From Bacteroidales bacterium (GTDB taxonomy: Bacteria > Bacteroidota > Bacteroidia > Bacteroidales > UBA932), in the NCBI GenBank assembly GCA_024401975.1, contig JAKSKB010000006.1, forward strand, positions 1 to 48,516: a stretch of 48,516 nucleotides of DNA. The letters run 5' to 3'. Both the position numbers and the translations under genes were made by a program. The first letter of the stretch is position 1. Each line of letters begins with the position of its first letter. Of the stretch, positions 193-48,323 are shown piece by piece. Below the pieces are notes generated by a model. The model saw only the letters and a program-made list of their open reading frames with translations, ran no database searches and was not told where the DNA came from.

Positions 193-282
193 ATGTATGA
201 CGGGGAAATACTTGACGCAAAGACATTCATTGACGTGTCCGACATATCATCCGGGCCGCAGGGCACGACAGAATGGGAATAA
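193..282 (+). other. possible 29-codon leader ORF before purC
   Basis: An ATG at 193 opens a 29-codon frame (beginning MYDGEILDAK, ending TTEWE) that stops at 282, ten bases into the longest purC frame and 18 bases before the alternative purC start at 300. It lies wholly in the predicted operon leader. I recognise no homologue and see no run of regulatory codons. It may be a translated leader or chance. Confidence 0.2.
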
Positions 283-983: not shown

Positions 984-984
984 T

Positions 985-1452: not shown

Positions 1453-1454
1453 AA

Positions 1455-7257: not shown

Positions 7258-7260
7258 GAT

Positions 7261-9821: not shown

Positions 9822-9824
9822 GAT

Positions 9825-11075
9825 ATGAAGAAGGTACTTGTAATCGGAAGCGGCGGACGTGAGCACGCAATCGTCGGGATTCTCCGGCGCTCTCCGCAGG
9901 TCGGAGAGATATACTGTGCTCCCGGGAATGCGGGCATAGCCTCTATGGCCGAGTGTGTTCCTGTCAAGGATACGGATGTGACAGCTCTGGTCGCCCTTGC
10001 CCGGGAAAAACAGGTGGACCTTACCGTCGTCGGTCCTGAGGCGGCTCTCTCTGCGGGGGTGGTGGATGCGTTCCGCGCCGAAGGGTTGAAGATTTTCGGC
10101 CATACCGTGGCTGCCACACGAATCGAGAGCAGCAAGGAATTCGCGAAACTTCTGATGACGAAGTACCGGATTCCCACAGCCGCTTACACTACCTTCACTT
10201 CATACGATGAGGCACTGACCTTCGTGGCGGCGAGACCTTTTCCGGCTGTTCTCAAGTATGACGGACTTGCGGCCGGAAAGGGCGTCGTGATTGCGGAGAA
10301 CCTCTCCGAGGCGCAGGATGCTCTTTCTGATATGCTGATAGACGCGCGCTTCGGAGAGGGGAAGGTCGTAGTCGAGGATTTCCTCTCAGGACCGGAATTC
10401 TCGTTTATGTGTTTCGTGAACGGTCACAAGATTTATCCTATGCCGCTCTCGCAGGATCACAAGCGGGCGCTGGACGGCGACAAGGGACCGAATACGGGAG
10501 GTATGGGCGCATATACGGGCTTGCCTTTCATTACCGATGAAGACCGCAGGTTCGCCTTGAAGGAGATTCTTCAGAAAACCGCAGACGCTATGTGTGCGGA
10601 AGGCTGTCCTTTGACCGGAGTCTTGTATGGCGGTCTGATGAAGACTCCCGACGGTATCAAGGTGATTGAGTTCAACTCGCGTTTCGGTGACCCCGAGACC
10701 GAGGTTGTACTTCCTCTGCTCGAGAGCGATGCCTATGAGATTTTTGAGGCTGTTGCGTGCGGGACGGAGTGTCCTGAACCAAAGTGGTCGGATGACGTGA
10801 CCCTTGGCGTGGTTATGGCTTCGGAAGGATATCCGGGGACATACCGGAAGGGAATTCCTATTTCTCTCCAGGACCGGCAGATGCAATTGATTCATATGGG
10901 AACGTCCGTCCGTGACGGTCAGCTGGTGACCGCCGGGGGGCGCGTGCTTATGTGCATCGGTCGTGGAAAAACGGTGGAAATAGCTCGCCGGATGGCCTAT
11001 GACAGCGTTTCGAAGGTGAAATGCTCCAGTTTATATTACAGAAAAGATATTGCCTGGCAGGCTTTAAAAAAATAA
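9825..11075 (+). CDS. purD: phosphoribosylamine-glycine ligase (GAR synthetase)
   Basis: This is a 416-residue ATP-grasp enzyme joining phosphoribosylamine and glycine. It begins with the GSGGREHAI dinucleotide-fold motif, has KYDGLAAGKGV in the ATP-binding subdomain, NTGGMGAY and the metal-binding EFNSRFGDPE. The length is normal for a stand-alone bacterial PurD. It follows purH after three bases and precedes purT after three. Confidence 0.97.
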   Translation: MKKVLVIGSGGREHAIVGILRRSPQVGEIYCAPGNAGIASMAECVPVKDTDVTALVALAREKQVDLTVVGPEAALSAGVVDAFRAEGLKIFGHTVAATRIESSKEFAKLLMTKYRIPTAAYTTFTSYDEALTFVAARPFPAVLKYDGLAAGKGVVIAENLSEAQDALSDMLIDARFGEGKVVVEDFLSGPEFSFMCFVNGHKIYPMPLSQDHKRALDGDKGPNTGGMGAYTGLPFITDEDRRFALKEILQKTADAMCAEGCPLTGVLYGGLMKTPDGIKVIEFNSRFGDPETEVVLPLLESDAYEIFEAVACGTECPEPKWSDDVTLGVVMASEGYPGTYRKGIPISLQDRQMQLIHMGTSVRDGQLVTAGGRVLMCIGRGKTVEIARRMAYDSVSKVKCSSLYYRKDIAWQALKK

Positions 11076-11078
11076 ATT

Positions 11079-12269
11079 ATGGTAAAGATTGGAACACCCT
11101 TAAGTCCGGTTGCAAAGAAGGCGCTTCTTTGCGGTTCCGGCGAACTTGGAAAAGAAGTTGCAATAGAGTTGCAGCGCTATGGCGTAGAGGTTGTCGCTTG
11201 CGACAGGTATGCGAACGCACCCGCAATGCAAGTGGCTCATAGAAGTTATGTCTTCTCTATGCTGGACGGAATCAGGCTTCGCGAGGTGATAGAGACGGAG
11301 AAACCGGACATTATAATTCCTGAAGTCGAGGCTATTGCCACTCCTGTTCTCGTCGAACTCGAGAATGAGGGCTACAATGTCATTCCTACGGCAAAGGCCG
11401 CTTTCCTTACGATGAACCGGGAGGGCATCCGCCGTCTTGCGGCGGAGGAACTTGGCCTGCCTACGTCTTTCTATCGTTTTGCTGACAACTGGGAACAGTT
11501 CAAGGCCGCTGTCGGGGAAGTGGGCATTCCTTGTGTGGTGAAGCCGATAATGTGTTCTTCAGGCCACGGCCAGAGTATGGTCAAGACTGCCGCTGACGTT
11601 GAAAACGCGTGGCATATCGCACAGGATGGCGGACGTGCCGGCGCCGGACGCGTGATTGTGGAAAGATTCGTGGATTTTGATTATGAAATCACCCTTCTGA
11701 CCGTGCGTCATGCCGGTGGCACCACCTGCCTGGAGCCGGTAGGGCATCATCAGGTCGAAGGGGATTATCGTGAAAGCTGGCAGCCTCAGCCTATGAGCGC
11801 TGTCGCCATCGGGAAGGCTCGTGAGATTGCGAAGAAAGTTACCGGGGCTCTGGGCGGCTACGGCATTTTCGGTGTCGAGATGTTCATCAAGGGCGACGAG
11901 GTCATCTTCAGCGAGGTCTCGCCACGCCCGCACGATACCGGTATGGTCACTATGATTTCTCAGGACCTGTCCGAGTTTGCGCTTCACGCGCGTGCCGTTC
12001 TCGGACTGCCGATTCCGGAAATCCGTTTCTTCGGTCCTTCCGCCTCGAAGGCTATTGTCGTTGAAGGGAATACGGACAAGGTCGAGTTCTACGACATCGA
12101 CAAGGTATTGGAAGAACCCGGTGTGCAGATTCGTCTGTTCGGCAAGCCGGAGGTTATCGGGCACAGGCGCTACGGTGTCATTCTGGCCACGGACGAGACC
12201 ATCGAGAAAGCTCTTGCAAAGGCTGAACGGGCTTATGCGAAACTTGGCGTGAGGATTCTTGAAAGGTAG
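11079..12269 (+). CDS. purT: formate-dependent GAR transformylase
   Basis: The 396-residue ATP-grasp protein matches PurT, which forms FGAR from GAR, formate and ATP. Key stretches are the [12 protein letters not shown] nucleotide fold, the PEVEAIAT loop, [14 protein letters not shown] in the ATP site, [15 protein letters not shown] and the [12 protein letters not shown] metal-binding segment. These distinguish it from PurK, the related family member absent here. It is the last gene of the operon. No purN is present, so this third step appears folate-independent in this organism's operon. The stop is only five bases from the convergent folD stop. Confidence 0.96.
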
Positions 12270-33059: not shown

Positions 33060-34556
33060 CTAGAGCGTCCTCAAGTAGTCGAGGGCGTTCCTTGCCATTT
33101 TTTCAATATTGTCCTGGTAACTGTTGGCAGACGGTTTGGAAAGGTCATAAGTCCCATCCATCTGTTTCATATAGAAGTTGCAACCGCCATTTCCGACGCA
33201 GAGCACAGTACCTTTGAAGTCAGTGTTCCCCTGCCGCGCTTCCCATACGTTCAGCTGACTTATCCAAGTAATTTGACTGTCCCATACCCCAAGAGGGTAT
33301 ATGCCGTAGATTGACGTGAGAGCATCATAACAGGCTTTCTTCTGATTTTCTATGTTGGTAAGAACGGATGGAATATTGAAAAAGACACAGTTGTTGTCCT
33401 CCGTGAAGCCCGGTCCCTTTACCGCTATAAATTTGGTATCGCCGGAAGGGACGGCTTCCAATCCGTTATAGATGGGATGTGAAGAAAAGTCCTTCGTGAA
33501 ACCCGGCACTGCAAGTTGCACCGCCATTTTCCATGTATCGCCATTGTGGCTTCCTTGATCACGGCCGATGGCATTGTCATTTTTCTTCAGCATATCGAGA
33601 CTGATACGCCCGATATGGCCGATATACGTTACCGCGTGCCCCCACAGGAGCAGATTGCCCCCTTCCTTGTACCAAGCCTTGATGAAAGGTGTCGCGGCCG
33701 TCACACTTTCTGGGAAGGTAAAGGCATCGACTTGTGAATCCTCAATGTCGCGCATAAAGAACAGGGTGCCGTATTTATTCAGGCTTTCCGCCGAACTGAT
33801 TGACGAGAAAGGCAGGTATTCGCCTTGGGGATACTCCTTGTGAAACCATATCCAGCCGTAGGCCTCGTCGTCATCACCATTGGCAATCAGCTCATCCGGG
33901 GTGCCATACATACTCAGATATGCCACCTCCATATTCTTTACGGTGAAGGTATCAGCCACAGGCATTGATTCGCCTTCGTCATTTCTGGCAATGAGCGTGA
34001 CCGTCCAGGTATCGCCTGTAATAACACCGTCAATGACATATTCCTCTGTCCCGACCGGTATTTCCTCATTGATATCCCTGCCCTTTCCGTTGCTCGCTGC
34101 AAAGGAGACGGCAGTTGCATCCGTGTCTTCGGTGCTCCACTCCACCTTTGCGTCGTATCCGCCTTCCCTTTCAATCTGTGTCGTCTTCAATCCGCTGCAC
34201 TCTCCGGCACCGCGCTTGATGAATGTCTTGAGAGTGCCTTTGGAGAAATTCGTGCCGTCAGTGAATTTCAGGACATAGATGTATTCGACGTTGCGCTCGA
34301 TGTCGGAATGTACGTAGAAGTTGTCCGCCGTTACTGCGGTCTCTACGATTTCCCCTCCTTCGTAGATGCTTACTTCCATAAGATATTCGCTTTCGGGCCA
34401 GTTCAGTGTATAGGTCCTACCCTGAAGTGTGCCTTCGATTGAAGATTCCACGGGCGCCTTGATGATGGGGTCTGCGATATGGACGCTCATATCCGCGTTG
34501 CAGGAGCAGGCGAGCGCCGCAGCAATAAAGAATATGATATACCTTGCGTCTTTCAT
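33060..34556 (-). CDS. DUF4960-type surface lipoprotein, candidate glycan-binding protein
   Basis: From the ATG at 34556 the product has 498 residues and a lipoprotein signal (MKDARYIIFFIAAALACSC). Two fibronectin/Ig-like beta domains follow (about residues 30-110 and 115-205). The larger C-terminal domain (about 210-498: YGTPDELIANGDDDEAYGWIWF, GNLLLWGHAVTYIG) looks like the DUF4960 family of Bacteroides. It is last in the SusC-SusD unit, 20 bases after SusD, the position of SusE/SusF-type surface glycan-binding proteins. I infer outer-surface glycan binding. No enzyme signature is seen. Confidence 0.8.
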   Translation of the reverse strand: MKDARYIIFFIAAALACSCNADMSVHIADPIIKAPVESSIEGTLQGRTYTLNWPESEYLMEVSIYEGGEIVETAVTADNFYVHSDIERNVEYIYVLKFTDGTNFSKGTLKTFIKRGAGECSGLKTTQIEREGGYDAKVEWSTEDTDATAVSFAASNGKGRDINEEIPVGTEEYVIDGVITGDTWTVTLIARNDEGESMPVADTFTVKNMEVAYLSMYGTPDELIANGDDDEAYGWIWFHKEYPQGEYLPFSSISSAESLNKYGTLFFMRDIEDSQVDAFTFPESVTAATPFIKAWYKEGGNLLLWGHAVTYIGHIGRISLDMLKKNDNAIGRDQGSHNGDTWKMAVQLAVPGFTKDFSSHPIYNGLEAVPSGDTKFIAVKGPGFTEDNNCVFFNIPSVLTNIENQKKACYDALTSIYGIYPLGVWDSQITWISQLNVWEARQGNTDFKGTVLCVGNGGCNFYMKQMDGTYDLSKPSANSYQDNIEKMARNALDYLRTL

Positions 34557-34576
34557 AACTGATAGTGTATTATGAA

Positions 34577-36325
34577 TCAATAATTCTGATTCTGCGTGTA
34601 AAGGCCTGTGCGCATCTGCTCCGCGGGAATGGGCCAGTACTCATTTTTGCCGGGCGTGAAGGTCGCCTCGCCGTAGTACCCCGCATAGTCCACTTCTCCG
34701 TAGCAGGAATGCTGCTCGGCATCGAAGTAACTGTTGAGCGTCTTTGAAGCGAGACCCCAGCGACGCAAGTTGAAGAAGCGCTCCGACTCCATAGCCGTCT
34801 CAAGCCTTGTCTCCCAGCGGAGACGTTTGCGCATCTCGTCCTGCGATAGCTGTGGACCGCTATTGTACAAAGCAATATAACATTGATCCGCCGCGTATGG
34901 TATGTGCTTCATAACGGATTTTTTCGCGCGTTCCCTGATTTTATTGATCATCTCCATAGCTTGAGGGTTGTCACCTAACTCAATAAAGGCCTCTGCGCGC
35001 CAAAGCATCACCTCAGCGTAGCGGATGACATAGTCATTCATCGCGAAGCACTGCCAGTTGTCTTCGGAAACAGTCTCCCCCTTGGACCTCTGGGGGACTT
35101 CCTTCAGGGAGGTGTAACATCCGTACGTTGAAGGACACATCGAATTTTCTTCCGCCGAGAGCATATACGACTCCTCATACTTGTAGGGGAAAGTGGGCAG
35201 GCCTACCGTGTGGAAAAGCCGGGGATCCCACTTCTGACTTGTCGGAGCCCCCAATACGGGGTATGTGTTGTGATCGGCTTCGTAGTCGTCGAACATAGGA
35301 ATACCATCATCCTTCGTCTTGAAGGCGTTGACAAGATTCTGAGAGGGCTTGTGGAAGTCCATCCCCCTCGTCCAGATACCATAGCAGCCGTTAAGCACGT
35401 TGCCCCAGTTGGAACGTCCGTACAGGGTATTGTCCTCCGTACTGTTCGAATGCTGCACTGCGAAGATGGATTCGCGCCCGTTCCTGCCGTCTTCCATAAA
35501 GATGTCACCGAAGTCATCTTCCAAAGCGTATCTGCCGGAATTGATGATATAATCGGTGGATTCAAGAACTTTTTTTAGATATTCCCTGTTGACGTGAGCA
35601 TATCCCGTGCTTTCCTCATAGCCGTTACCGTAGGCTATGGTGAGATAGCATTTGGCGAGCATAGCTGCCGCTGCGGCTCGGTTTGCGCGGCCCTTGTCAT
35701 CCTGCATTTCCGGAAGGTTTTCACGCGCATATACAAAGTCTTCAATCACCTTCCCCATAAGTTCCTCGTATCCCATATCATTGGTGACGGATTGCTCCGT
35801 CAACCCGCGCACTGCTTCTTCATCGATATAGGGTACTTTGTGCCAAACCTGTATCAACTTGAAGTAGAAAAGGCCCCTGAGGAAGCGGACTTCCGCTATG
35901 CGGATTTTGGCCTGTTCCTCGCCGAGTTTCTCATTTCCATAGTCCGTAAGGGAGAGGAGAGCCCTGTTGCAGCGGGACACTCCGGCATAAAGGGCGCACC
36001 AGAGTTCGTTCAGGTAATCTCCCGGAGTGGAAGGGGAGAGCGTGCTCCACGTCTCTATGGCGTGATATTCAGTATCACTTATGCCGTTCCCGCCTTTAAG
36101 CGCGTCATCGCTGGCCAGGGATCCGTAAGGCCAGAGGTTGATGGGGCAGGTGTACCAGTCATTGCCGAGTGAGGCATACGCTGCCGTGACCATAGCTTCA
36201 GGGTCGCTGTAGGCGGCTTCTTCACTTACGCCTTCGGACGGTGTAACGTCAAGAAAATCATCGCAGGAGCCCATACAGAGCAGGGCCGCCGCAGTTGCAA
36301 TAATAGTCAATATATTATGTTTCAT
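34577..36325 (-). CDS. SusD/RagB family outer-membrane lipoprotein
   Basis: The 582-residue product has a lipobox (TAAALLCMGSC, Cys21) followed by the SusD opening DDFLDVTPSEGVSEEAAYSDP and TPR-like helices (AEVRFLRGLFYFKLIQVWHKVPY). The C-terminal part has RYAEVMLWRAEAFIELG, RERFF-like NLRRWG and the final KNEYWPIPAEQM. SusD proteins sit on the cell surface as the lid of the SusC channel and bind the incoming oligosaccharide. It lies 29 bases downstream of the SusC gene and upstream of the DUF4960 lipoprotein gene. Confidence 0.95.
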   Translation of the reverse strand: MKHNILTIIATAAALLCMGSCDDFLDVTPSEGVSEEAAYSDPEAMVTAAYASLGNDWYTCPINLWPYGSLASDDALKGGNGISDTEYHAIETWSTLSPSTPGDYLNELWCALYAGVSRCNRALLSLTDYGNEKLGEEQAKIRIAEVRFLRGLFYFKLIQVWHKVPYIDEEAVRGLTEQSVTNDMGYEELMGKVIEDFVYARENLPEMQDDKGRANRAAAAAMLAKCYLTIAYGNGYEESTGYAHVNREYLKKVLESTDYIINSGRYALEDDFGDIFMEDGRNGRESIFAVQHSNSTEDNTLYGRSNWGNVLNGCYGIWTRGMDFHKPSQNLVNAFKTKDDGIPMFDDYEADHNTYPVLGAPTSQKWDPRLFHTVGLPTFPYKYEESYMLSAEENSMCPSTYGCYTSLKEVPQRSKGETVSEDNWQCFAMNDYVIRYAEVMLWRAEAFIELGDNPQAMEMINKIRERAKKSVMKHIPYAADQCYIALYNSGPQLSQDEMRKRLRWETRLETAMESERFFNLRRWGLASKTLNSYFDAEQHSCYGEVDYAGYYGEATFTPGKNEYWPIPAEQMRTGLYTQNQNY

Positions 36326-36354: not shown

Positions 36355-38781
36355 TCAGAATCCCAGCTGGAGTCCTGCGCTGAGTGCCATCGCGTGAGGG
36401 TAGGCGAAATTCTGGTTTTCAGGGTCGGGGCAGATGAGATTTTTGCTCTTTACCGTAAGCAGATTGTGCCCGCTGACAAAAAGACGGGCCTTGCTGATTT
36501 TCGTGTTCTTCAGCAATCTAGTCGAGAAATTGTATCCGATTTCCAGATTGCGCAGTTTGAAATATGAACCGTCTCCGACGAAATAAGAGGATACCGGAAC
36601 CACATCTGAATCCGTAAGAGGCGAATACCAACTGTAAACTTTCTTCCCTGCAATGCCTTGCCAGAACATCCTGAAATCAAGTCCAGCATACATCAGGCAT
36701 AAGTCCAGACCATAGGCGAGATCCGGTACGGGATTGAAAATCCAGGTCTGGTCATCATCGTTGATGATTCCGTCTCCAGTGAGGTCAACGTAGCGGATGT
36801 CACCGACCTCCGCGTCCGGCTGTGCGCTGGTCATCACCTCTTCTTCGGAAGTGAACAGGCCGTCGGATACTAATCCCACCATGGAACCATACGGAACCCT
36901 GGCCTCGACGATGTTCTGCGTCGTGGTGTAGGGATAATATCTTTCAGTACCTTCCGGCAGATAAGAGACCCTGTTCCTGAAGAAGTCCGCATTCGCGGCG
37001 ATGCTGTAATACAGACCGGAACTTGTCCTGTTCTTGAAACCGAGGGTGAATTCCATACCCCAGCTGCGCATGGAAGGACCGTTTTCCAAATGGATTCCTT
37101 TCTCTCCGGCAGCACCGGGATAGATGTGGGGGACAATCAGGTCGTTCGTATTCTTGCAATAGGCGTCAACGCTTCCGAAAAGGGCATCGCTGAAAAATCC
37201 GAAATCCAGCCCGACGTTCCATTGTTTAGTGATTTCCGGTTTGAGGTCGGAGTTGGTGATGCTCAGAATTCTGTATCCGTAATCGAGTTGCCCGCGCGAG
37301 CCTGTGATGTCATAAGCCGTCGATTCCCGGCGTCCGGCCATATAATCGAAGGAATAGAGTCCTAAGAGTGAAGGGTTGTCAATCGGCTGATTCCCTGTCT
37401 GTCCATAGGATACGCGGAGTTTCAACTCCGACAGCCACGAGGCGTCAATCGTCTTGGAGATTCTGTATCCCAGTGAGGCGGACGGGAAAGTGGCGAAGCG
37501 GTTATTTTTCGCGAAGATGCTGGAACCATCGTAATTGAGGGCGACAGTTGCAAGCAGAATGTCGTTCCAATTGTAATCCAATTTTCCGAAGAACGAGATG
37601 AGCGAATACTTCAAATCTGTTTCGTAGATGCGGCGTCTGTAGAACTCGACTCCGGCCAGAACAGACAACTTGTGGTCTGTCGGGAGGGGAGCGGTATATT
37701 TGATGGTGTTAGCCCAATTCCATTTCTCGGAATTCGTACGGCCTGTTCCTGCAGTCTCTTCTGCCAGTCCTGCAATCAGACCTGTGCCACGGAGAAAACC
37801 GGAGGCGTAATCGACTCCGAAGTCGGAACGCAGTTCCAACCCTTTGACGGGGGAAATCTCAATAAACGCGTTCCCTAGAATACGCCACATATTGTATCTG
37901 TCATCGTTCAGAAGTTCGGTGGTCCGCATTCTGAGCATATTGTCCCCTGAGCAACAATCCGTCCGGTTGCTGTATGATACGGACAGGTTTTCTCCGACAC
38001 TTATGAATCTGTTGATTCTGGTGTATGTGTTTACGCGCGCTGAAATGTTTTCGAAGTCGAAGCCCTTCAATACGCCGTCCGCTTTCTTGTAGCCGACACT
38101 GAACATCTGTGTGCTCTTTTCGGAACTGTTGGTGACGGACAGGTCATAATTCTGGGTGATGCCCTTGCCGGCCATTTCCCTGAGCCAGTCCTCCTCTTCA
38201 GGCGCGATGGCGTGCTGTTTGTCATAATACGACACGGCAACGGATGCATTGAAGTCGGCTCTTGTACTCTTCTGTCCTATCTTGCCGCGTTTTGTGGTGA
38301 TGACAATCACGCCGTTTGACGCGCGGGAGCCGTAGATTGCAGTGGAGGCTGCGTCCTTGAGCACTTGAATGCTTTCGATGTCGTGGGCATTGAGCGTGTT
38401 GAGTGAATTGGAAGTGGGTACTCCGTCAATGACGATGAGGGGCTCGCTGTTGGCCCCTATGGTATTGATGCCGCGGATGCTGATTGTACCTATGCAGGAA
38501 GGCGAACCGTTGTCGGTGATGCTAAGGCCGGCAACTTTCCCCTGCAGAGATCTGAGCGGGTCGGTATAGATGGAGTTGTTTACGTCTTCCGTGGGGGCGG
38601 TGGTCACGGCGCAGGTAAGGTCGGACTCTCTTTCGGTCGTGTAACCGGTACTGACAGCCCTGTCGTCCTGTCGGAAGATTCCATTGCTTGCGTCCGGTTC
38701 TTCTGAAACGGGTGCGCTTTGAACCGCCGCCATCAGATTCGCTCCGATAAGCAGGGCGGCAATCGTTGGAATGTTATTCAT
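36355..38781 (-). CDS. compact SusC-like TonB-dependent transporter
   Basis: The 808-residue product has a signal peptide (to about residue 23), a plug (LQGKVAGLSITDNG, ISIRGINTIG, PLIVIDGVP, IESIQVLKDAASTAIYGSRASNGVIVITTK) and a SusC-type beta barrel (KLRVSYGQTGNQ, AFIEISPVKGLELRSDFGVDY, C-terminal LGF). SusC proteins usually have about 1000 residues. This one lacks the N-terminal carboxypeptidase-regulatory-like domain before the plug, and the stretches between plug and barrel and before LELRSDFG appear shortened. No in-frame stop or frameshift is seen. It would import oligosaccharides captured by SusD, driven by TonB. Confidence 0.92.
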   Translation of the reverse strand: MNNIPTIAALLIGANLMAAVQSAPVSEEPDASNGIFRQDDRAVSTGYTTERESDLTCAVTTAPTEDVNNSIYTDPLRSLQGKVAGLSITDNGSPSCIGTISIRGINTIGANSEPLIVIDGVPTSNSLNTLNAHDIESIQVLKDAASTAIYGSRASNGVIVITTKRGKIGQKSTRADFNASVAVSYYDKQHAIAPEEEDWLREMAGKGITQNYDLSVTNSSEKSTQMFSVGYKKADGVLKGFDFENISARVNTYTRINRFISVGENLSVSYSNRTDCCSGDNMLRMRTTELLNDDRYNMWRILGNAFIEISPVKGLELRSDFGVDYASGFLRGTGLIAGLAEETAGTGRTNSEKWNWANTIKYTAPLPTDHKLSVLAGVEFYRRRIYETDLKYSLISFFGKLDYNWNDILLATVALNYDGSSIFAKNNRFATFPSASLGYRISKTIDASWLSELKLRVSYGQTGNQPIDNPSLLGLYSFDYMAGRRESTAYDITGSRGQLDYGYRILSITNSDLKPEITKQWNVGLDFGFFSDALFGSVDAYCKNTNDLIVPHIYPGAAGEKGIHLENGPSMRSWGMEFTLGFKNRTSSGLYYSIAANADFFRNRVSYLPEGTERYYPYTTTQNIVEARVPYGSMVGLVSDGLFTSEEEVMTSAQPDAEVGDIRYVDLTGDGIINDDDQTWIFNPVPDLAYGLDLCLMYAGLDFRMFWQGIAGKKVYSWYSPLTDSDVVPVSSYFVGDGSYFKLRNLEIGYNFSTRLLKNTKISKARLFVSGHNLLTVKSKNLICPDPENQNFAYPHAMALSAGLQLGF

Positions 38782-38883: not shown

Positions 38884-38899
38884 CCTGACGTCTGTCAGG
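38884..38899. terminator. possible terminator-like hairpin after the giant sialidase gene
   Basis: CCTGAC-GTCT-GTCAGG is a perfect six-base-pair stem with a four-base loop overlapping the stop codon of the giant gene. It lacks a following T run on either strand, so it may instead affect mRNA stability. Confidence 0.25.
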
Positions 38900-41800
38900 G
38901 CAGGGAGGGGGAGCAGCAGCGTGTCAGACTTTCCTTTAAGGACGTGTTGTAGCCCTGCGAGAAGAAGATTGTCCTGCCTTCCCCGCTTTTCAGCGCCAGA
39001 AGTGGCAAAGTCGATGCACCGTCACCTGCGTCCTGGAGTTCTTCCAGTACCTTTCCGTCGGCATCCACGCTGTAACTTACGTGCTTGAGCGAGGATATGA
39101 AACTCTTGTAGAATTCAAGGCTGCCTTCCGTAGGCCCGTAGAGACGCACTTCTCCGCCCCAGGCGTTGAGCGCTTCCGCGGCGGCTTCAAGTTGACGGAG
39201 GGCGTGAGTGGTAGGCTCTCCGTTTTCAGCCAGTCTGGCAATGATGAAGCTGCCTTCACCCGCTTTGCTCTCCCGTCCCTCATCCTTCAAGATAATCAGT
39301 TCTCCGTTTCTCGTTGCGCCAGCCTCGATATTGAAGGTTTCAAAGTGCATAAGCACGCTGCCGTCGGAGAGCCTGTTGCCCGATACGAGGGAATAGTACC
39401 CCTCTTCAAGGCGGAATTCTCCGGACGGCTTCTCTTCAGAATATTCGAAGTCAATGAGTTTCTGCGAACCGTTCTCAATCTTTGAAATAGAGAATTTGCC
39501 TGAATATGCTTCCGCCGGGTCTATGCCTGCTTCGGAAGTGTCCAGAACAAATGTCCCACGGGGCTTTGCGATGGCGGAATTCTTTTCCAGGTCAACGTCC
39601 AGCCACAGCGAGTCACGCAGAATCTGGACATTGCCGCTCTGCTGCTCTATCCTTGCCGGGAAACCCAGCGCGCGGCATACTGCGACATAGAACGCACCCA
39701 GCGAACGACGGTCGCAGACTCTTCCCCTAAAAACGGCTGCGGGAGGAATCGCAAGGCCCTGAGGATTTCTGTCGGCATCTATCCTGACGTTGGCTTTGAG
39801 CCATTCGAGGACTTCGTCTGTCGAAGACACTTTCCCATTCAGCCCGGAGCGGATCTCGCTGTGGAATGGCATCAGATATTCAAGCCCTATTCTCGGAGAG
39901 AGCACGTAGGGGCTCGGGTTGCTTATGTCGCTTATGGCATCTTCCAGTACATCGGGAGTAATGTCGCGGAAATCCTTTTCACTCAGATATGCGAGGACGT
40001 TGTTTACGGCTACGGTCTTTTCGGGGCTTTCCGCGCAGTTTTTGAAGGCGTCAATGACTTCGGAGTTGACCACTCCTTTGTGGAGTGATGCCCGGATGAC
40101 GTCTTCCTCCTTCAGCCTTGCCGCGTTGCGCTCTGCATCTTCTGCGGAGGCATAAGCCGGAATAGGATTGCTGGCAGGAGGCACTATATGGCAATCGAAA
40201 CTGAATTCTTCGCCCGAACTGTGGTCAAGTACCAGTTCGGTCATCTCCGAGCCCGCCTTCACGAGACCGAATCTGTCATCCTTCGAAGCCCATACCATAA
40301 TGTCTCCCTTACCGGTATCAAGCCCGGCGATGCCGTCTCTGTCGGATATGGCCGTCGCCACGGTATAGAGTTCTGCGTAGTTGTAAATTTTGAATTCCAC
40401 TCTGGCTCCCTTTACGGGACGCCCTTTTTCATCGACTACCTTCACGGAAGTGCGTCGCGCCTCCACATAGTTGCGTATGACGTTAATCTCCGTAAAAAGC
40501 CTGTTCTTCCGGATGACATCTTCAGGGCCATTGTAATCGCCATAGACATTGGTGTGGAGCAGCATAGCTCTTGATACCGGTTCGCTGAACCATCCCATAT
40601 CAAGGGCTGGTTCCGGCTCGCAGGCTCCGAGGAAATGCCACTTGCCGTCAACCCAGGCCTCAACCCAGGCGTGATTGTCATCCGTGTGGGCCCAGCGAGG
40701 GGTATAGACCTGTCTGGCAGGGATGCCGGCCGCTCTCAAGGCTGCAACAGTGACGACCGATTCTTCCCCGCAGCGCCCGAATCCGTAGCGTATGGTCGAC
40801 ATAGGGGCAGACGTCCGTCCGTCCGACGGGCGGTAGGTGACTCTCTCGTGGCACCAGTGGTTTATTTCCAGTACGGCGTCGTACATACTCATTCCCCTGA
40901 CCCTTTCGCAGAGCGAATCGGCGTAGCACGTCCTGAAGTCATCGAGTCTTTCGTTGTTGACGCGGAGCGGCAATACGAAATGTACGAACTCCCTTTCGGG
41001 TATGCCCCAGTTCATTGTCTCCCGTACCTCCAGCGTCTTCTCCACGTTCTTTTCCCACCATTCGCGCGGATAGACCAGACTGTCAGGCAGAGGCATCGTC
41101 GAAGACAGAAAATCCATATATTTTTCCTTTCCGCTTCGGTTAAGCAACCAGTTGACTGAGAAGTTGAGGTAGTACATATCGAATTCCGCCGCCGGATTTT
41201 CTTCGATATATGCTCCTATTGTGCCGTCTTTTTGAAGGGTGAGCGACGAATAGACGGACTCGTAGCGGCAAAGCGACTTGACATAGGGCCATGTCCTGCC
41301 GGAGTCACGGCTGACGAACACACTCACGTTGCGTCTTGTCATATCGTTGGGGACTGACTGCAGCAGAAGCGAATCTCCTACGGCAAGCAAATCTCCATCG
41401 CAGGCTGTCACGTTCATATCCTTCCATTTTCCCTGACAGCCCCAGGTCGCTCCTCCGTCTTCCGAGAAATTGTATCCGCGCAGGCCGTGCTGACGGACAC
41501 TCATCAGAATTCTTCCGTCCGGCAGTTCCGCCACTTTAGCTTCGTCCCCGTCGGTGTATGCGCGAGCGGAGACTTTCCAGCTTGCGCCCTCGTCATCGGA
41601 ATAGACGGCGTAGTTGTCGAACTTTCCTTTCTCTGCGGAATGGACAGCGGCGACGAAGATGATTCTTCCGGCGTATTTCCCGTGCCTGATGCGCAGCCCG
41701 TTTCCTGACGCGAAGAATGCGCTATGGTAGCTTCTGCACTCGCGGTTGACGGCTTTCGGCCCCCAGAGAGCCTCTGTGCAGTCATAGGGTTCATTCCAGG

Positions 41801-43826
41801 TCTGTCCTCCGTCTGTACTGCGTACTATGTAGTTGCGCATGGGATTTTCAATATTGGAAGCCCAGGTGCCCGCACCTCCGCTGTATGCGCACAGCACGTC
41901 TCCGGATGCGGTGACGGCAAGGGCGGCATCACCGAATCCCTTTCCGAATCCCTTTCCTTCGGCAAGCGTGACAGGCTCGCTCCAAGTATGTCCTCCGTCT
42001 GTGCTGCGCTGCGAGATTATGTCTATGTCTTCCGGAAGGTCCAGGTCGTTGTTCTTCCGCTTGTCCGTGGTTATGAGAAGAGTCCCGTCGGGGAGTGCGG
42101 CAATGGCCGGGATGCGGTATCCCGCCGAGCCGTAGTCACCGGTCCCCAGTACTTTGACGCGGGCGAGAAGTATCTCCCTGCCTCCGCCGGCCGGCGATTT
42201 CACGCTTTCCCATCCGGAGCGGAATCTTACCCGCACTATGTCGGCGCGCACTTTGTTCCCTTCCTTCGCATCGGGAGCGATGTCCGCGCAGACTTCTATG
42301 GACTTGACGTCATCTATGGCGTGGCGGCATCTGATGATGTACGACTTCTTGCCGGCTTTTACTTTTGAGGTGCCCAGCACCTTGCCGTCGCACCTTACGG
42401 AGAGTGCCGTGACGTCACCGTCCCCGGCTTCGAGAACCACCTTGATTTTCTTCAGTCCGGTCTTCCCTTCGGGAGAGACCACGAGAGTCTCCAGAAGCTC
42501 TCCCGTGTTGCCCCGCCCGGTGTAGGACGTCTCACGTGTCGCATACATTGTCTTACGGGGCTGAAGCCCGAGGTCAAGGGCAATCATCCTGCCGATTTTG
42601 ACGTAAGCCTTTCTGCGTAAGAAACTGCCGCTGACGGAGCTCCTGTCAATACCGTCTTCTCCGGTCATCATACTGGAGCTGAAATCCATAAATGCGGCGC
42701 CTTCCTCTTCGGCCAGCGTCTTGAAGATGGCATTGAGCTCACGGACAGGTGTGACCTGAACATGGCCGGCGAAAACCGGCTGTACGGACATCAGAGTGAG
42801 CCGGCTGGACGGAACCGCCTGTCTGACGGCCTTGAGCAGAGAACGGCAGGCCGCCGCGATTGTGTCGGCAGGCACGTTGGCCAGCACTTCAGCTGTCCCG
42901 ACGTGGATGTAAACACAGGCAGGGCTTTCTTCCGAGTGGAATATGGCAGGCAGTTCCCTTTCTATATCCGCAATGCGAGGACCGCCTGCGCCCCAGCCCA
43001 TGCCGCGGTTCTTCACCTTGTCACAGCCGGTCAGTTCGTGCCATTCGCCGCCGTGAACCATGGCATCACCGAGTACTACGACGTCATCACCGTCAAGAGG
43101 AAGCAGGGAGAAGGACGCAGTGCGCATACCTGTGCTGCCTCCGAGTCCGCAGGAATTGCCTTCGGAGTCGGGATACACGCATTCCGTTCCGACGAATCCG
43201 GCTATTTCATTGCACCATACACGGTAACCGGAGGGTAGGGGATGGAGCCCGTCGAGAGTGTATGCCGGGTTGATGCGGGTCGTGCCCGGTTCCACAAATT
43301 TTGACCATAGGTCCACATAGGTGTAACCCTTGCGCGCGCACAAGCCTCTGTAAAGTTCATTCAGCTCCATGATCTTCTTGGCGGAGCGGACGTTGTTTTC
43401 CGAGACGGGCAGTATGCTCTGGATGTAGATTTCAGTCCGGGGGCTTTCTTGCACAATCCTGTCCGTTATCGCTTCCACGTTGCGCAAGATGGCATATGGA
43501 TTGTCCAGACCGGGACGTGCAAGGTCATTGGTGCCTATCATCAGGAATACTTTCGCCGGGTGTCCTTCCGCTATCGGATCTATATTGTCCAGAGTTTGAG
43601 CGGAAATACATCCGGATACACCTCTGTTGAGGATATTGCTCTGACTGCCGAAGGCTTCCCACCATTCGTGCATATTGGTGATGCTGTTGCCGGCGAAGAC
43701 TATGTCGCCTTCCTGCACCGGCATTGCTTCCAAGGCGTCGTAACGATGCGCGTGAAAATCATATTCAGCATAAGCGGCGCAGCAGAGAAGAGCCGCCGCG
43801 ACGGTGATTGTAAGTTTTTTGCTCAT
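38895..43826 (-). CDS. four-module protein: SGNH esterase, degenerate SGNH, GH33 sialidase, transglutaminase-like
   Basis: One uninterrupted 1643-residue protein with a signal peptide (to about residue 20). Residues 30-215 are an SGNH esterase: Ser48 in GNSIT, GTND at 98-101, Asp192 and His195 in DGLH. Residues 237-422 repeat the fold but have GDA (Ala255) for the serine motif. A beta-sandwich as in Bacteroides sialidases spans about 425-545. The GH33 propeller (550-900) has Arg571 in YRIP, five Asp boxes (608, 670, 743, 788, 839), Glu767, Arg778, Arg832/833 and Tyr859. From about 905 a transglutaminase-like module has Cys1019 (GRCGEES), His1052 and Asp1060, plus a weaker second Cys-containing segment near 1371. 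It would deacetylate and release sialic acids; the last module's role is unknown. It is third in the enzyme operon, 20 bases after its neighbour. Confidence 0.9.
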   Translation of the reverse strand: MSKKLTITVAAALLCCAAYAEYDFHAHRYDALEAMPVQEGDIVFAGNSITNMHEWWEAFGSQSNILNRGVSGCISAQTLDNIDPIAEGHPAKVFLMIGTNDLARPGLDNPYAILRNVEAITDRIVQESPRTEIYIQSILPVSENNVRSAKKIMELNELYRGLCARKGYTYVDLWSKFVEPGTTRINPAYTLDGLHPLPSGYRVWCNEIAGFVGTECVYPDSEGNSCGLGGSTGMRTASFSLLPLDGDDVVVLGDAMVHGGEWHELTGCDKVKNRGMGWGAGGPRIADIERELPAIFHSEESPACVYIHVGTAEVLANVPADTIAAACRSLLKAVRQAVPSSRLTLMSVQPVFAGHVQVTPVRELNAIFKTLAEEEGAAFMDFSSSMMTGEDGIDRSSVSGSFLRRKAYVKIGRMIALDLGLQPRKTMYATRETSYTGRGNTGELLETLVVSPEGKTGLKKIKVVLEAGDGDVTALSVRCDGKVLGTSKVKAGKKSYIIRCRHAIDDVKSIEVCADIAPDAKEGNKVRADIVRVRFRSGWESVKSPAGGGREILLARVKVLGTGDYGSAGYRIPAIAALPDGTLLITTDKRKNNDLDLPEDIDIISQRSTDGGHTWSEPVTLAEGKGFGKGFGDAALAVTASGDVLCAYSGGAGTWASNIENPMRNYIVRSTDGGQTWNEPYDCTEALWGPKAVNRECRSYHSAFFASGNGLRIRHGKYAGRIIFVAAVHSAEKGKFDNYAVYSDDEGASWKVSARAYTDGDEAKVAELPDGRILMSVRQHGLRGYNFSEDGGATWGCQGKWKDMNVTACDGDLLAVGDSLLLQSVPNDMTRRNVSVFVSRDSGRTWPYVKSLCRYESVYSSLTLQKDGTIGAYIEENPAAEFDMYYLNFSVNWLLNRSGKEKYMDFLSSTMPLPDSLVYPREWWEKNVEKTLEVRETMNWGIPEREFVHFVLPLRVNNERLDDFRTCYADSLCERVRGMSMYDAVLEINHWCHERVTYRPSDGRTSAPMSTIRYGFGRCGEESVVTVAALRAAGIPARQVYTPRWAHTDDNHAWVEAWVDGKWHFLGACEPEPALDMGWFSEPVSRAMLLHTNVYGDYNGPEDVIRKNRLFTEINVIRNYVEARRTSVKVVDEKGRPVKGARVEFKIYNYAELYTVATAISDRDGIAGLDTGKGDIMVWASKDDRFGLVKAGSEMTELVLDHSSGEEFSFDCHIVPPASNPIPAYASAEDAERNAARLKEEDVIRASLHKGVVNSEVIDAFKNCAESPEKTVAVNNVLAYLSEKDFRDITPDVLEDAISDISNPSPYVLSPRIGLEYLMPFHSEIRSGLNGKVSSTDEVLEWLKANVRIDADRNPQGLAIPPAAVFRGRVCDRRSLGAFYVAVCRALGFPARIEQQSGNVQILRDSLWLDVDLEKNSAIAKPRGTFVLDTSEAGIDPAEAYSGKFSISKIENGSQKLIDFEYSEEKPSGEFRLEEGYYSLVSGNRLSDGSVLMHFETFNIEAGATRNGELIILKDEGRESKAGEGSFIIARLAENGEPTTHALRQLEAAAEALNAWGGEVRLYGPTEGSLEFYKSFISSLKHVSYSVDADGKVLEELQDAGDGASTLPLLALKSGEGRTIFFSQGYNTSLKESLTRCCSPSLP

Positions 43827-43846: not shown

Positions 43847-45589
43847 TTATCTGGACACGGCATAGTCGTGGGCTTCGAGATAGGCCTTGAGCCGTTCAAG
43901 ACCTTCATCGTCCGGACCTGCGAAGAAAGACACTCCGCTCGCTCCGTTGCCGTAGGCTGCGTCGAGCGCCTTTTCGAAGTCGTCCTTGATGTCGGGATAC
44001 ATCACTCCGGCATAAATCGCCGCCCGCCCCTGAACCGCTTTCACGCTTTCGTTGACAGACCTGCCTATCCACTCCACGCCCTCATCGTAGAATCCGTTGT
44101 AAATCATAGGGAAATACGCCTTGAGAGGCCAATTGCCCCAGTCCTGCCGGACCATCTTGCGTGCCATCGAGGGCCCTGGAAAGACGGCTGCGGAAAGGAA
44201 TTTTCCGTCGGCCTCCAGTGTCTTGTGAATTTTTTCGACCACTGCGGTGATTGCATCGAGCCTGAAATTTATCCAGGACTGGCTCTCCTGCGGGTATTTC
44301 AAATCCAGAGGATCCTTGCCTGTCAGTTCCTTGAACTTCTCCCTGCAAAGTTCGCAGTAGCAGTAGTCATACTCCGGCAGTTCGCTGGTTTGCTCGATGC
44401 CGTAGCCCGACCACAGCGATACGGGCAGAATCACGTCGGGGAAACGCACGTAATCCAGATGCATTCCATCGACGTATTTGAGACGGGAGAGTTCAAGGTA
44501 GTCATCCGCAAGGAACTCGGCCACTTCCGGGTGACTCGGACACAGAAAACGGTAGTAATCGACGTAAGCGGGCTTGTCGAAGGTGGATTCGCTTTTGCGG
44601 TTGACAGCGAACCATTCGGGATGGGAGTCCAGCAGGTCGGCCCTGTTCATCGTCCATCTCCAGTAATGGGCTTCCAGACCGGCCTCCTTGCAGAGACGGT
44701 AAATCCTCTCGTCATAGCCTTCGAAAAGGACTGCGCATATTCCGCATTCGAAGGCTTTGCGGAAATGAGCGGAATACTGTTCGTCGCTCCAGTCTCTTTT
44801 CAGTCCTTCCCACATCCAGTTCTTCACTGTCCGGGCGTGGGGCAGTTCCGGGACCGACTGGCCGTCACAGAATCGGAGATATCCCCATTTCGAAGGCAGG
44901 TGTATGTCCACCTTGTCAGTGGGGGACCATACCCAGTTTTCTTCGGGGCCTTCCGGCTTCAGCCATTCCACTCTGGAAAAGTTGACCCGCCAGACTTTGT
45001 TGAGTCTCGGATCCCGGAAATCCCTCTTCAACGCATCGAACGGGATGGCCATTTCCACGTACCAGGCGCGATCACTGTCTCCTTTGCGGTTGAGCGTGCC
45101 GTCCACGGATACGGCGAGTTCAAGTCCCTTGCAGTCCCAGTTCATTATGAACGTGCCGCCTTCGCTGTACGGTTTCTCCATCATAAGGTCCATCACCGTG
45201 CCAAGGGCGTTGTTCTCTATCTCATAATAGAGTTTGCCGTCGCAGTAAGGGTCGAGAAAGACCTCGAAGTCGTTGTCCTTGTAGATGATGGAATCGTGTT
45301 CCTTGAGCGAGCCTGTCACGTTGTGTTCAATCAGTGTGGCTCCCACATAAAGGCAATCGTCATCCCAGGCCATCTTCATCGTTGTGGACATTGTCGGAGC
45401 GGGCCAATCTTTTCCCCTGATATCGACGAACTCTGTACTCGGGACAGCCTCTTTCCAGGTTTTTTCGGTCAGTTTGCCGTCAATCTTCATCTTGTCTGTC
45501 GAGCGCCGAGCATCATACACGCGGGTGGGGGACTGAGCATTCGCCATTACCGGCAAAGCCAGTACCAATACAAGTAGAAGTCTTTTCAT
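43847..45589 (-). CDS. secreted CBM9-like plus glycoside-hydrolase-like (GHL10 type) protein
   Basis: The 580-residue product has a signal peptide (to about residue 19). Residues 22-240 resemble CBM9 (MKIDGKLTEKTWKEA, LYVGATLIE, KDNDFEVFLDP, the AWYVEMAIPFDAL strand, WRVNFSRVEW). Residues 255-575 resemble the glycoside-hydrolase-like TIM barrels of the GHL10 group, with DYVRFP at 379-384 after a GMHL strand and a CYCELCREKF cysteine pair. Target glycan unknown. It follows the fucosidase gene after seven bases and precedes the sialidase fusion by 20, so it is in the same enzyme operon. Confidence 0.78.
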   Translation of the reverse strand: MKRLLLVLVLALPVMANAQSPTRVYDARRSTDKMKIDGKLTEKTWKEAVPSTEFVDIRGKDWPAPTMSTTMKMAWDDDCLYVGATLIEHNVTGSLKEHDSIIYKDNDFEVFLDPYCDGKLYYEIENNALGTVMDLMMEKPYSEGGTFIMNWDCKGLELAVSVDGTLNRKGDSDRAWYVEMAIPFDALKRDFRDPRLNKVWRVNFSRVEWLKPEGPEENWVWSPTDKVDIHLPSKWGYLRFCDGQSVPELPHARTVKNWMWEGLKRDWSDEQYSAHFRKAFECGICAVLFEGYDERIYRLCKEAGLEAHYWRWTMNRADLLDSHPEWFAVNRKSESTFDKPAYVDYYRFLCPSHPEVAEFLADDYLELSRLKYVDGMHLDYVRFPDVILPVSLWSGYGIEQTSELPEYDYCYCELCREKFKELTGKDPLDLKYPQESQSWINFRLDAITAVVEKIHKTLEADGKFLSAAVFPGPSMARKMVRQDWGNWPLKAYFPMIYNGFYDEGVEWIGRSVNESVKAVQGRAAIYAGVMYPDIKDDFEKALDAAYGNGASGVSFFAGPDDEGLERLKAYLEAHDYAVSR

Positions 45590-45596
45590 ATAGATA

Positions 45597-48269
45597 CTAA
45601 TAATTGTTGAAACTCATAACCTGACCGGAACCGCGATACAGTTCGAGCGGCCCTTCGAGTTCAAGGGCGAGCACAGTCATCGCTTCGTCCGTGACATCCG
45701 CAGGAACGTCGATGTAATAGACTCCGGGCACTTCGCTCCAGTCTATGTCATTGTAGAGTTTCCAGTCGAGAGTACGGTTCGTGCCGACGACGCGCACCTT
45801 CTTTACAGCTGTCTTGAGTCCCTTGACTTCAACGGACTCGTTGGGAATGAAGGGAAGATAGACATAAAGAATGTCTCCGGCTTCGTTGAGGGTGGTGTAA
45901 CCCTGAACGTGGCCATCAGGGATGCCCGCGCGAGTAGGATAAACGGCTTCGTCGTGCTTCTTTATCCATCTTCCGATGTATTTGAGGACATTGACTTCCT
46001 CTTCGGGTATCGTGCCGTCGGCACGGGGACCGATGTCAAGCAGCAGATTGCCGCCGAGAGACATACAGTTTACAAGCATCCGCAGGAGAGTGATGCCGGA
46101 TTTGTATCCGGTATCACTCTTTTGAAATCCCCATGAGTCATTTATGGTCATACAGGTCTCCCACCATCGTTCTTCCGGTTTTACGACCGGGACTCCAAGT
46201 TCGGGAGTGGCATAATCACCATTCCCTCGAATGCGGGAATTAAGAATTACGTCTGGGTTTGTCTCGCGAAGCATCGACACAAGTTCGGGAGCGCGCCATT
46301 CGTCGGAGGAGAATTCCCAATCGCCGTCGAACCAGTAGAGGTCGGGATGATAAATGTCGTTGAGATCCTTCATCTGGGCGAAGTTGAAATTGCAGAAATG
46401 CTGCCATCTGTCCGGTTCCTCCCGGATGTCATATCTCTGCGGCCCCTCGCGGAAAACGTTAGGATAATCCTCCCGCGGCCAGTCGATAAGCGAGTAATAC
46501 AAACCCAACTTGAGTCCGCCCTGACGGCGCACCTCATCCACGAAGGGGGTCAGTACGTCCCGTCCCGCCGCGCAACTCTTCACCGTGCTCACGTCACCCG
46601 CCTGAGTATCCCATAGAGCCACTCCGTCGTGATGTTTTGAAGTGATGACGGTATATTTCGCACCGCTTTCCCTAATGAGCGACACCCATTCTTCCGGATT
46701 GTAGTTGGCGGCAGTGAAATCCGCTTTCTGTGCCATATAATCCTCCATACTCACCTTTTTGTTGTAGATGGGCCAGCTCTCGCCCCAGTCTCCGCGGGAA
46801 TAGATGCCCCAATGGATGAAGATGCCGAGTTTCGCACGTGAGAACCATTCCATCCTATCAGCCTTATGTGCGGCTGACTCGTGTTTGGGGAATGCGGGCC
46901 TGACCAGTTCGAACCCTGTCAGGCGGATGGCGACAGGCTGGCTCCTATCCACGGAGCGGGGGAGTCTCACCGTCACCGTACCGTCTTCCGATTTTTTCCA
47001 GCTCAACCTTCCGCCTGTGTCGACCAGTGTCATTGCAGCACCCTTGAGAGGGTTCAGGGAGTGGAACTCTATCGTGGACGGAACGGTCTCATCGTCTTTC
47101 AGACCGTAGATTGCATAATATTTCGAGCCGTCCTTGGAAGCGGTGAACCAGAGTTTCCCATCATTATAGACAGGAGCCTTGCGGGTTGCATATATGGCTT
47201 CGCCGTTTTTGTCGAGCCATCTTCCTATCTTCGCGAGAGTGTCCACTACGGCCTGCTCAATGAGTCCGCTGGGGTCCGGACCCACTCCGAGGAGCAGCGA
47301 GCCTCCTTTCGCGCTTATCTCGGCAAGCGTTGACACGACTCTCGCCGCAGACTTGAATTTCGCATTCTTGGCGTAGCCCCAGGCGTGACTGAGTGTCATA
47401 CAGCTCTCCCAGGGGCAATCATATGGCTCTTCCGGAACCATCTGCTCCGGAGTGCAGTAGTTCTCCCATTTGCCTCCCACTGTCCTGTCCACGATTATAA
47501 GACCTGGCTGTTTTTCGAGAGCCATCGCGCCTATGCGGTCCATATCCACGTCTTCGCGTGAACCCGTCGCGACCCATCCACCGTCGAGCCAGAGTATGTC
47601 CAACTTGCCATAGTTGCTCATCAGCTCCTCAATCTGGTTGTATGTAAAGTCTTTGAAAGCCTGCCAGCGCTCCGGATAGCGATTGAGGTCGTAATTGGCG
47701 TGCCTGTCGGGAGTGGCGTATTTGTCCCACCAGAAATACTGGCTGTGCCAGTCAGGCTTGGAATAATATGCGCCTACCTTGAGGCCTCTGCTTCGGAACG
47801 CGTCAAACACTCCGGCCGCCACGTCAGCTCTTTCATCGCCCTTGAGCCCGAAATTGGCAATCGAGAAATCTGTCTCCCCGCTGTCGAACATACAGAATCC
47901 GTCGTGGTGCTTGGTAGTGAAAATCATATAGCCCGCTCCCGAATTCTTGACCGCATCGGCCCATTGGCCCGGGTCGAAAGATGTCGGCCGAAAACTGTCG
48001 GCAAGTCCCCAATACCATTTCTTGTACGAATCGTAGGTGTATTCGGGGCCGCGCTCCACCCAGTCTTCGGAGCAAAGCGGCCAGGATTCGCAGATGCCTG
48101 GTTGAGAATACAGGCCGAAGTGGAAGATGACTCCGAATTTCAAGTCCTGCCATTCGGAAAGATTCCTGATGACGGCTGGATCTGTGGGTGCCTGATAATT
48201 TTCTTGAGCGAAGGCGCCTGATGCAGCGATAGTCAGAAGCAAGGCGGCCGGTAAAGCGAACGGTTTCAT
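45597..48269 (-). CDS. tandem alpha-L-fucosidase, two GH29 domains in one chain
   Basis: The ATG at 48269 gives 890 residues with a signal peptide ending near AFA (residue 21). Two complete GH29 catalytic units follow. Unit 1 (about 35-455) has FGVIFHFGLYS, TTKHHDGF and nucleophile Asp229 in LWLDGGW. Unit 2 (about 470-870) has LGIFIHWGIYS, TSKHHDGV and nucleophile Asp648 in YWFDGDW. Each is followed by the usual SLLLGVGP or NLLLDIGPRADG segment and a C-terminal beta domain. The units are clearly different in sequence, so this is an old fusion and not a recent duplication; they may prefer different fucosyl linkages. It is the first gene of the enzyme operon. Confidence 0.93.
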   Translation of the reverse strand: MKPFALPAALLLTIAASGAFAQENYQAPTDPAVIRNLSEWQDLKFGVIFHFGLYSQPGICESWPLCSEDWVERGPEYTYDSYKKWYWGLADSFRPTSFDPGQWADAVKNSGAGYMIFTTKHHDGFCMFDSGETDFSIANFGLKGDERADVAAGVFDAFRSRGLKVGAYYSKPDWHSQYFWWDKYATPDRHANYDLNRYPERWQAFKDFTYNQIEELMSNYGKLDILWLDGGWVATGSREDVDMDRIGAMALEKQPGLIIVDRTVGGKWENYCTPEQMVPEEPYDCPWESCMTLSHAWGYAKNAKFKSAARVVSTLAEISAKGGSLLLGVGPDPSGLIEQAVVDTLAKIGRWLDKNGEAIYATRKAPVYNDGKLWFTASKDGSKYYAIYGLKDDETVPSTIEFHSLNPLKGAAMTLVDTGGRLSWKKSEDGTVTVRLPRSVDRSQPVAIRLTGFELVRPAFPKHESAAHKADRMEWFSRAKLGIFIHWGIYSRGDWGESWPIYNKKVSMEDYMAQKADFTAANYNPEEWVSLIRESGAKYTVITSKHHDGVALWDTQAGDVSTVKSCAAGRDVLTPFVDEVRRQGGLKLGLYYSLIDWPREDYPNVFREGPQRYDIREEPDRWQHFCNFNFAQMKDLNDIYHPDLYWFDGDWEFSSDEWRAPELVSMLRETNPDVILNSRIRGNGDYATPELGVPVVKPEERWWETCMTINDSWGFQKSDTGYKSGITLLRMLVNCMSLGGNLLLDIGPRADGTIPEEEVNVLKYIGRWIKKHDEAVYPTRAGIPDGHVQGYTTLNEAGDILYVYLPFIPNESVEVKGLKTAVKKVRVVGTNRTLDWKLYNDIDWSEVPGVYYIDVPADVTDEAMTVLALELEGPLELYRGSGQVMSFNNY

Positions 48270-48290
48270 TGGAGTCTGTCGTTGGTTTCT

Positions 48291-48298
48291 CAAATATA
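48291..48298 (-). promoter_or_regulatory. -7 promoter box for the fucosidase-sialidase operon
   Basis: On the minus strand this reads TATATTTG, a perfect TAnnTTTG, 21 bases before the ATG at 48269. A CTTG 19 bases further upstream (48318-48321) is a three-of-four match to the -33 TTTG. Confidence 0.52.
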
Positions 48299-48323
48299 CA
48301 AAAAAAACATTGACCGACAAGGC

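Follow-up and report, generated by a model that had tools for sequence, protein, structure and literature searches.

A fusion of an SGNH esterase, a GH33 sialidase and a transglutaminase-like module in a SusC/SusD glycan locus of a Bacteroidales bacterium

O-acetylation generally makes Neu5Ac resistant to sialidases, and the closest described counterpart of the protein analyzed here is SiaBb1 of Bifidobacterium bifidum, a single chain that removes the 9-O-acetyl group before its GH33 part releases Neu5Ac (PMC10017367, available text). A transglutaminase-like (TG) module is not mentioned in the available text of that paper. The sialic acid acetylesterase of Phocaeicola vulgatus (7PZG, 6NJC) has been solved as a chain of about 200-220 residues that carries neither a sialidase nor a TG module. 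With regard to the TG module, a "possible transglutaminase-family protein" of Bacteroides fragilis (3E8V) is represented by a solved fragment of only 82 residues with no function found, and a transglutaminase-like putative cysteine protease of Cytophaga hutchinsonii (3ISR) has an Asp where the TG family described below has a Gly. Fusion of an O-acetylesterase to a sialidase has thus already been published. In contrast, TG modules fused to glycosidases (pairings with a sialidase, a fucosidase, a PNGase or GH92 enzyme, or CutC) were not found among the papers listed from the open-licence PMC literature. For example, the accessible parts of PMC5114307 and PMC11000858 give transglutaminase and glycosidases as separate table entries, and that of PMC12659350 is unrelated to such a fusion.

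The window, a stretch of 48,516 nucleotides from a fragmented draft genome of 118 contigs, contains a gene that joins modules of these kinds in one chain. We describe its modules, its distribution among 400 genomes of the genus and 295 genomes of the order, and the genes that surround TG modules. A first-pass annotation knew of no described enzyme with this order of modules; none was found in the literature searched, where a fusion of an esterase and a sialidase is described.

Architecture of the fusion gene

The fusion gene occupies positions 38895..43826 on the minus strand, as do its parts and the adjoining genes of its run, and is one open frame of 1643 codons plus a stop with no N in its DNA. 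This agrees with the frame reported in the first-pass annotation, which did not state the strand. From the N- to the C-terminus it encodes an SGNH esterase (SGNH1), a pseudo-SGNH copy (SGNH2), a beta-sandwich, a GH33 sialidase and the TG module, and a Pfam scan of the whole chain returned Lipase_GDSL_2 (6.9e-28), BNR_2 (1.1e-21) and Transglut_core (1.1e-24), each above its cut-off. Residues 1-20 (43767..43826) look by eye like a signal peptide, with AYA before E21.

SGNH1 (43191..43760, residues 23-212) has an intact Ser48-Asp192-His195 triad that had been correctly placed from the start; these residues together with the block II and block III motifs are kept in all eight aligned rows (the window and seven relatives). 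Its match to the solved P. vulgatus sialate O-acetylesterase 7pzg (E 2.7e-43) indicates that it is probably sialate O-acetylesterase-like, with removal of O-acetyl groups as the predicted activity. SGNH2 (42537..43190, residues 213-430) still matches Lipase_GDSL_2 when scanned alone with Pfam (1e-8) and has a predicted fold nearest to the P. vulgatus sialic acid esterase. It differs from that enzyme in the nucleophile, as the corresponding position is occupied by Ala in two rows, including the window, and by Glu in six, so that the eight-row alignment contains no Ser nucleophile, nor is a catalytic His seen in it; the copy is indeed degenerate, as had been proposed. A beta-sandwich-like stretch without a Pfam match (42177..42536, residues 431-550) precedes the sialidase.

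The GH33 module (41142..42176, residues 551-895) contains five Asp boxes that start at residues 608, 670, 743, 788 and 839. Additionally, R571, D596, E762, R778, R831 and Y859 align to residues of a solved bacterial sialidase that we take to be its catalytic residues. The five Asp boxes and the sialidase Arg, Glu and Tyr residues noted earlier are confirmed, and the full set of three Arg, Asp, Glu and Tyr is conserved in the relatives, apart from one truncated row (L038) that stops short of R831 and Y859. The module probably releases sialic acid. A sialate O-acetylesterase-type module and a GH33 sialidase accordingly occur in one chain, as first proposed and as in SiaBb1, and the window chain adds to that arrangement SGNH2, the beta-sandwich and the TG module. 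Two related loci carry a separate GDSL plus SASA esterase gene upstream of the sialidase gene (L034 7904-9985 and L033 6726-8804).

The TG module begins at the junction (41103..41141, residues 896-908), ahead of which stand-alone TG proteins have a signal sequence. It comprises a transglutaminase-like core, TG1 (40491..41141, residues 896-1112), a Big-like beta domain whose nearest solved structure is 3e8v (40227..40490, residues 1113-1200), a degenerate transglutaminase-like repeat, TG2 (39645..39857, residues 1324-1394), and a thioredoxin-fold domain (38898..39269, about residues 1520-1643). Neither TG2 nor the C-terminal thioredoxin-like fold was recognized in the first-pass annotation. TG2 scores 23.3 bits for Transglut_core when residues 1324-1394 are scanned alone, just above the cut-off of 23, and lacks both a conserved Cys and a conserved His in the equivalent positions. 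The thioredoxin-fold domain has no CxxC and carries an invariant E-P-x-x-H (E1537, P1538, H1541) near the place where CxxC would be expected.

The transglutaminase-like core and peptide:N-glycanase

TG1 scores 87.2 bits against Transglut_core (PF01841), for which the cut-off is 23, and has both Cys and His. All 106 TG rows, among which the window's sequence and some genomes are represented twice, carry Cys1019, His1052, His1047, Glu1056 and Glu1070, as do all 50 rows of a separate alignment, A1; an active site therefore seems to be kept. An Asp1060 had been put forward as the third member of a Cys-His-Asp triad. It is rejected as a catalytic residue, since only 85 of the 106 rows have D at that position, against 16 with N, four with G and one with E, and the position varies in A1 too. 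The column that matches the Asp of related folds, as set by alignments, is instead Gly1067, which is invariant in all 106 rows and in A1. Of the proposed triad the Cys and His thus stand while the Asp does not, the third catalytic Asp of the transglutaminase type being absent from its canonical position in all 106 rows, and for this reason activity of the TG module is not assured. At an E of 1e-5 neither the TG module nor L110 matched an NCBIfam family, and the TG module belongs to a family for which we found no function. Variants of the module include one locus with two TG modules (L066), proteins split into TG1 and the remainder by a single stop codon (L047 9824-12256, also L129 and G242), and one split in the same way by overlapping frames (G486:C10:77008-79442).

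The TG1 core shares GRCGE and ACE motifs with the cytosolic peptide:N-glycanase (PNGase) 2F4M, although the similarity is weak (E 0.028). The Gly of TG1 stands opposite the Asp of the PNGase triad, so that the Cys-His-Asp arrangement is incomplete and the module is not filed as a PNGase. In the yeast enzyme that triad is Cys191/His218/Asp235 (PMC3498931, available text). PNGases were not among the 50 matches listed in either fold search. Among 15 genomes of the genus, all drafts that are 66-97% complete, none had a match to glycosylasparaginase (PF01112) or to a PNGase-F-type enzyme (PF09113), and each was matched in three of the 23 chosen genomes to which these 15 belong; glycosylasparaginase is accordingly rejected as a steady partner of TG.

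A more specific proposal can nevertheless be formulated, which we regard as distinctly improbable, that TG represents a new widespread class of glycopeptide amidase. It would resemble a PNGase in its Cys and His but have an unusual residue in third place, perhaps Glu1070 or one lent by the E-P-x-x-H of the thioredoxin-fold domain, and would cut the sugar-asparagine bond or a nearby amide bond after trimming by fucosidase and sialidase. A fucosidase acting at the sugar-asparagine core would have a precedent in Lactobacillus casei, which uses core Fuc-GlcNAc-Asn (PMC6960285, available text). If this proposal were true, there would be a further route of glycan release besides GH18, GH85 and the known PNGases.

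Distribution of the fusion and neighbourhood of TG genes

The whole chain occurs in four of 400 genus genomes, namely the window and three others at 78% (G018), 65% (G202) and 63% (G067) identity. The closest fused relatives stem from horse faeces, as over this gene the DNA of all three is the same as that of horse-faeces records (Horse_feces60, 70 and 66), and the fused loci include pairs identical in DNA (L003 and L033, L111 and L032, L112 and L036). In all four fused chains the junction reads WLLN(R/H)..K(E/D)(K/R)Y and the signal sequence of stand-alone TG proteins is absent there. A fragmented draft assembly, and the fact that close relatives carry both parts as separate genes, might suggest that the open frame arose by mis-assembly or through a lost stop codon that joined two genes. 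However, the same chain with matching junctions and the same missing signal sequence in three other genomes makes this explanation negligible, and mis-assembly is rejected. The fusion is real, rare and conserved. Three further relatives (G236, G391 and G257) have the front part alone as an unfused protein of 898-902 residues, and at least two of them have a separate TG gene among the matches listed.

At the level of the order, a TG protein was found in 91 of 295 genomes and in 60 of 183 genera, usually as a stand-alone protein, which upholds the earlier statement that the C-terminal module normally stands alone in Bacteroidales. Only the window's frame is this long in that sample, which includes just two genomes of the window's genus. 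A crude script test gave a lipoprotein-type signal in 84 of 107 stand-alone TG rows and before TG in none of nine rows with a glycosidase in front. Fusion is not restricted to sialidases. A GH29 fucosidase lies ahead of TG in one chain at five loci (L048, L050, L051, L137 and L138) and behind it at one (L083); Pfam confirms L050 and L083, and the other four GH29-TG chains were assigned by BLAST with the window's GH29. Long frames at L006, L122 and L136 are not fusions, as a signal sequence lies directly ahead of TG.

Because the kinds and orders differ (GH33 or GH29 ahead of TG, GH29 after it), at least three joinings are needed. In a 40-row tree the GH29-TG rows stand in three places, equivalent to three changes, behind which there may be a single gain followed by two losses, and two changes are required for the GH33-TG rows. 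Our reading of the latter is a single fusion that later reverted to separate genes; two joinings at that site are also possible, the matching junction sequences favour one, and resolution in the sialidase tree is too low to settle the number.

In the window the fusion gene is part of a minus-strand run that consists, in order, of a protein with two Alpha_L_fucos (GH29) stretches (45597..48320), a CBM9 plus GHL10-like protein (43847..45589) that lies 20 bases upstream of the fusion gene, the fusion gene itself, a short SusC-like TonB-dependent transporter of 808 aa (36355..38781), a SusD-like protein (34577..36325) and a DUF4960 protein of 506 aa (33060..34580). A SusC/SusD pair thus adjoins enzyme genes on the same strand, the arrangement of a polysaccharide utilisation locus. 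The SusC-like protein has Pfam plug and barrel domains and, unlike the SusC of L072, no CarboxypepD_reg domain. Elsewhere in the window, positions 273-12269 hold a series of genes for purine biosynthesis, among them two for SAICAR synthetase and one that is PurT-like.

We also surveyed 106 TG loci unique by sequence (merged from 123), with Pfam run on neighbour cluster representatives and other members assigned by BLAST clustering. Within 6.5 kb there were 28 loci with CutC, 16 with GH29, 12 with GH92, seven with SusC and four with GH20, all of them low counts because many TG loci have flanks as short as about 1.5 kb. Four of the 106 are fused to GH29; 46 have CutC, GH92 or GH29 (as a neighbour or in fusion), and 60 have none of the three. 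CutC, annotated as a copper homeostasis protein (for example L074 12401-13135), is the commonest neighbour; it may have a role in glycan use, even though we know of no glycan role for it. In one genome (G041) a CutC gene and a GH92 gene are separated by about 1 kb. CutC joined to a glycosylasparaginase, fucosidase or GH92 enzyme was not found among the papers listed from the open-licence PMC literature, and the accessible part of PMC10434189 lists CutC alone.

Across the order sample, GH92 is present in 87 of 91 TG-positive versus 105 of 204 TG-negative genomes (p 1.3e-15) and GH29 in 76 of 91 versus 84 of 204 (p 6.5e-12), both p values ignoring relatedness and genome size. GH28, a weak control with only 26 of 295 genomes positive, has no association (6 of 91 versus 20 of 204, p 0.51). 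Outside the genus, examples picked by eye among the matches listed have GH29 at 1.1-3.3 kb from TG (G504, G604, G533, G630, G485, G517) and GH92 at 1.0-5.1 kb (G517, G615, G484, G625); others picked in the same way have GH92 at 7-12 kb (G660, G437, G498, G566, G598, G683). A stand-alone TG gene in L072 lies beside a gene (6347-9877) whose product joins a GH92 to a GH125 mannosidase module. The fused locus L033 has nearby genes for a DHDPS-family protein, a GlcNAc 2-epimerase, a GH38 enzyme and a SASA esterase; NanA belongs to the DHDPS family. The GH29 fusions and the GH92 and GH29 neighbours strengthen the link of TG to host-type glycans. Enzymes of families GH92, GH125, GH38 and GH29 point at least as much to N-glycoproteins, and their presence among the neighbours in relatives does not support the mucin-type target originally proposed.

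Proposed role in glycoprotein processing

The reading that we favour, at a probability of roughly 45%, is that the fusion protein is a glycoprotein-processing enzyme of a SusC/SusD glycan locus in which SGNH1 and GH33 decap the glycan, SGNH2 holds it and an amide bond of that substrate is the target of TG. Glycopeptides would be imported by SusC/D, SGNH1 would remove O-acetyl groups from sialic acid and GH33 would then release the sialic acid, while SGNH2, which has no nucleophile, would help to hold the sialylated glycan. Once the sialic acid and fucose caps are gone, TG might act as a cysteine amide-hydrolase on the peptide or glycan-peptide part, and the fusion would keep the decapping and TG steps together. 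The attack on, or tethering to, the peptide backbone that had been proposed earlier is likewise conjectural. The repeated joining of TG to sugar-trimming enzymes hints that TG works on the same glycoproteins. Counting against this reading are the unfused sialidase chain in three relatives, the 60 of 106 TG loci that have no GH29, GH92 or CutC within 6.5 kb, and the position of CutC as the commonest neighbour.

Location is part of this proposal. The protein had been called secreted. Its N-terminus, as judged by eye, resembles a cleaved Sec signal, which suggests that the protein is probably periplasmic rather than released from the cell. According to the available text of PMC9522356, a type I signal points to a periplasmic location in Bacteroides, an indication that may mislead, and the available text of PMC10154615 describes an enzyme predicted to be periplasmic that was found on the surface and states that enzymes freeing N-glycans usually need to be outside the cell.

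Two other explanations of the TG module also have to be weighed. It may be a binding or scaffold module, in which a dead TG core, a degenerate repeat and the Big-like and thioredoxin-fold domains hold the glycoprotein for the neighbouring glycosidase. This would fit the Gly at the canonical Asp position in every row, a TG2 without the conserved Cys and His, a thioredoxin fold without CxxC and the precedent of SGNH2 as a nucleophile-less copy within the same chain, but the invariance of Cys1019, His1052 and the polar cluster around them in the rows examined is more than binding would need, and we consider a purely structural role doubtful. Somewhat less probable again is that TG fulfils some general task in the envelope, such as one on peptides or lipoproteins of the cell itself, with the glycosidase fusions reflecting only gene neighbours and a shared compartment. 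A spread over 60 of 183 genera, the frequency of CutC as a neighbour and the lipoprotein-like character of most stand-alone rows (84 of 107 in the crude script test) are what such a task would lead one to expect, yet it accounts poorly for fusion to two kinds of glycosidase in two gene orders, for an association with GH92 and GH29 and not GH28, and for the lack of a match in 204 of 295 genomes.

A role for TG in glycoprotein processing would provide a concrete function hypothesis for a widespread Bacteroidales protein without a found function that has, on more than one occasion, become fused to enzymes that decap host glycans. The natural fusions constitute a set for testing TG function, and the fused enzyme could find use as a single-chain reagent for O-acetylated sialoglycoproteins. 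If TG does cut the link between glycan and peptide, it would fill a gap in the pathway by which gut bacteria use glycoproteins.
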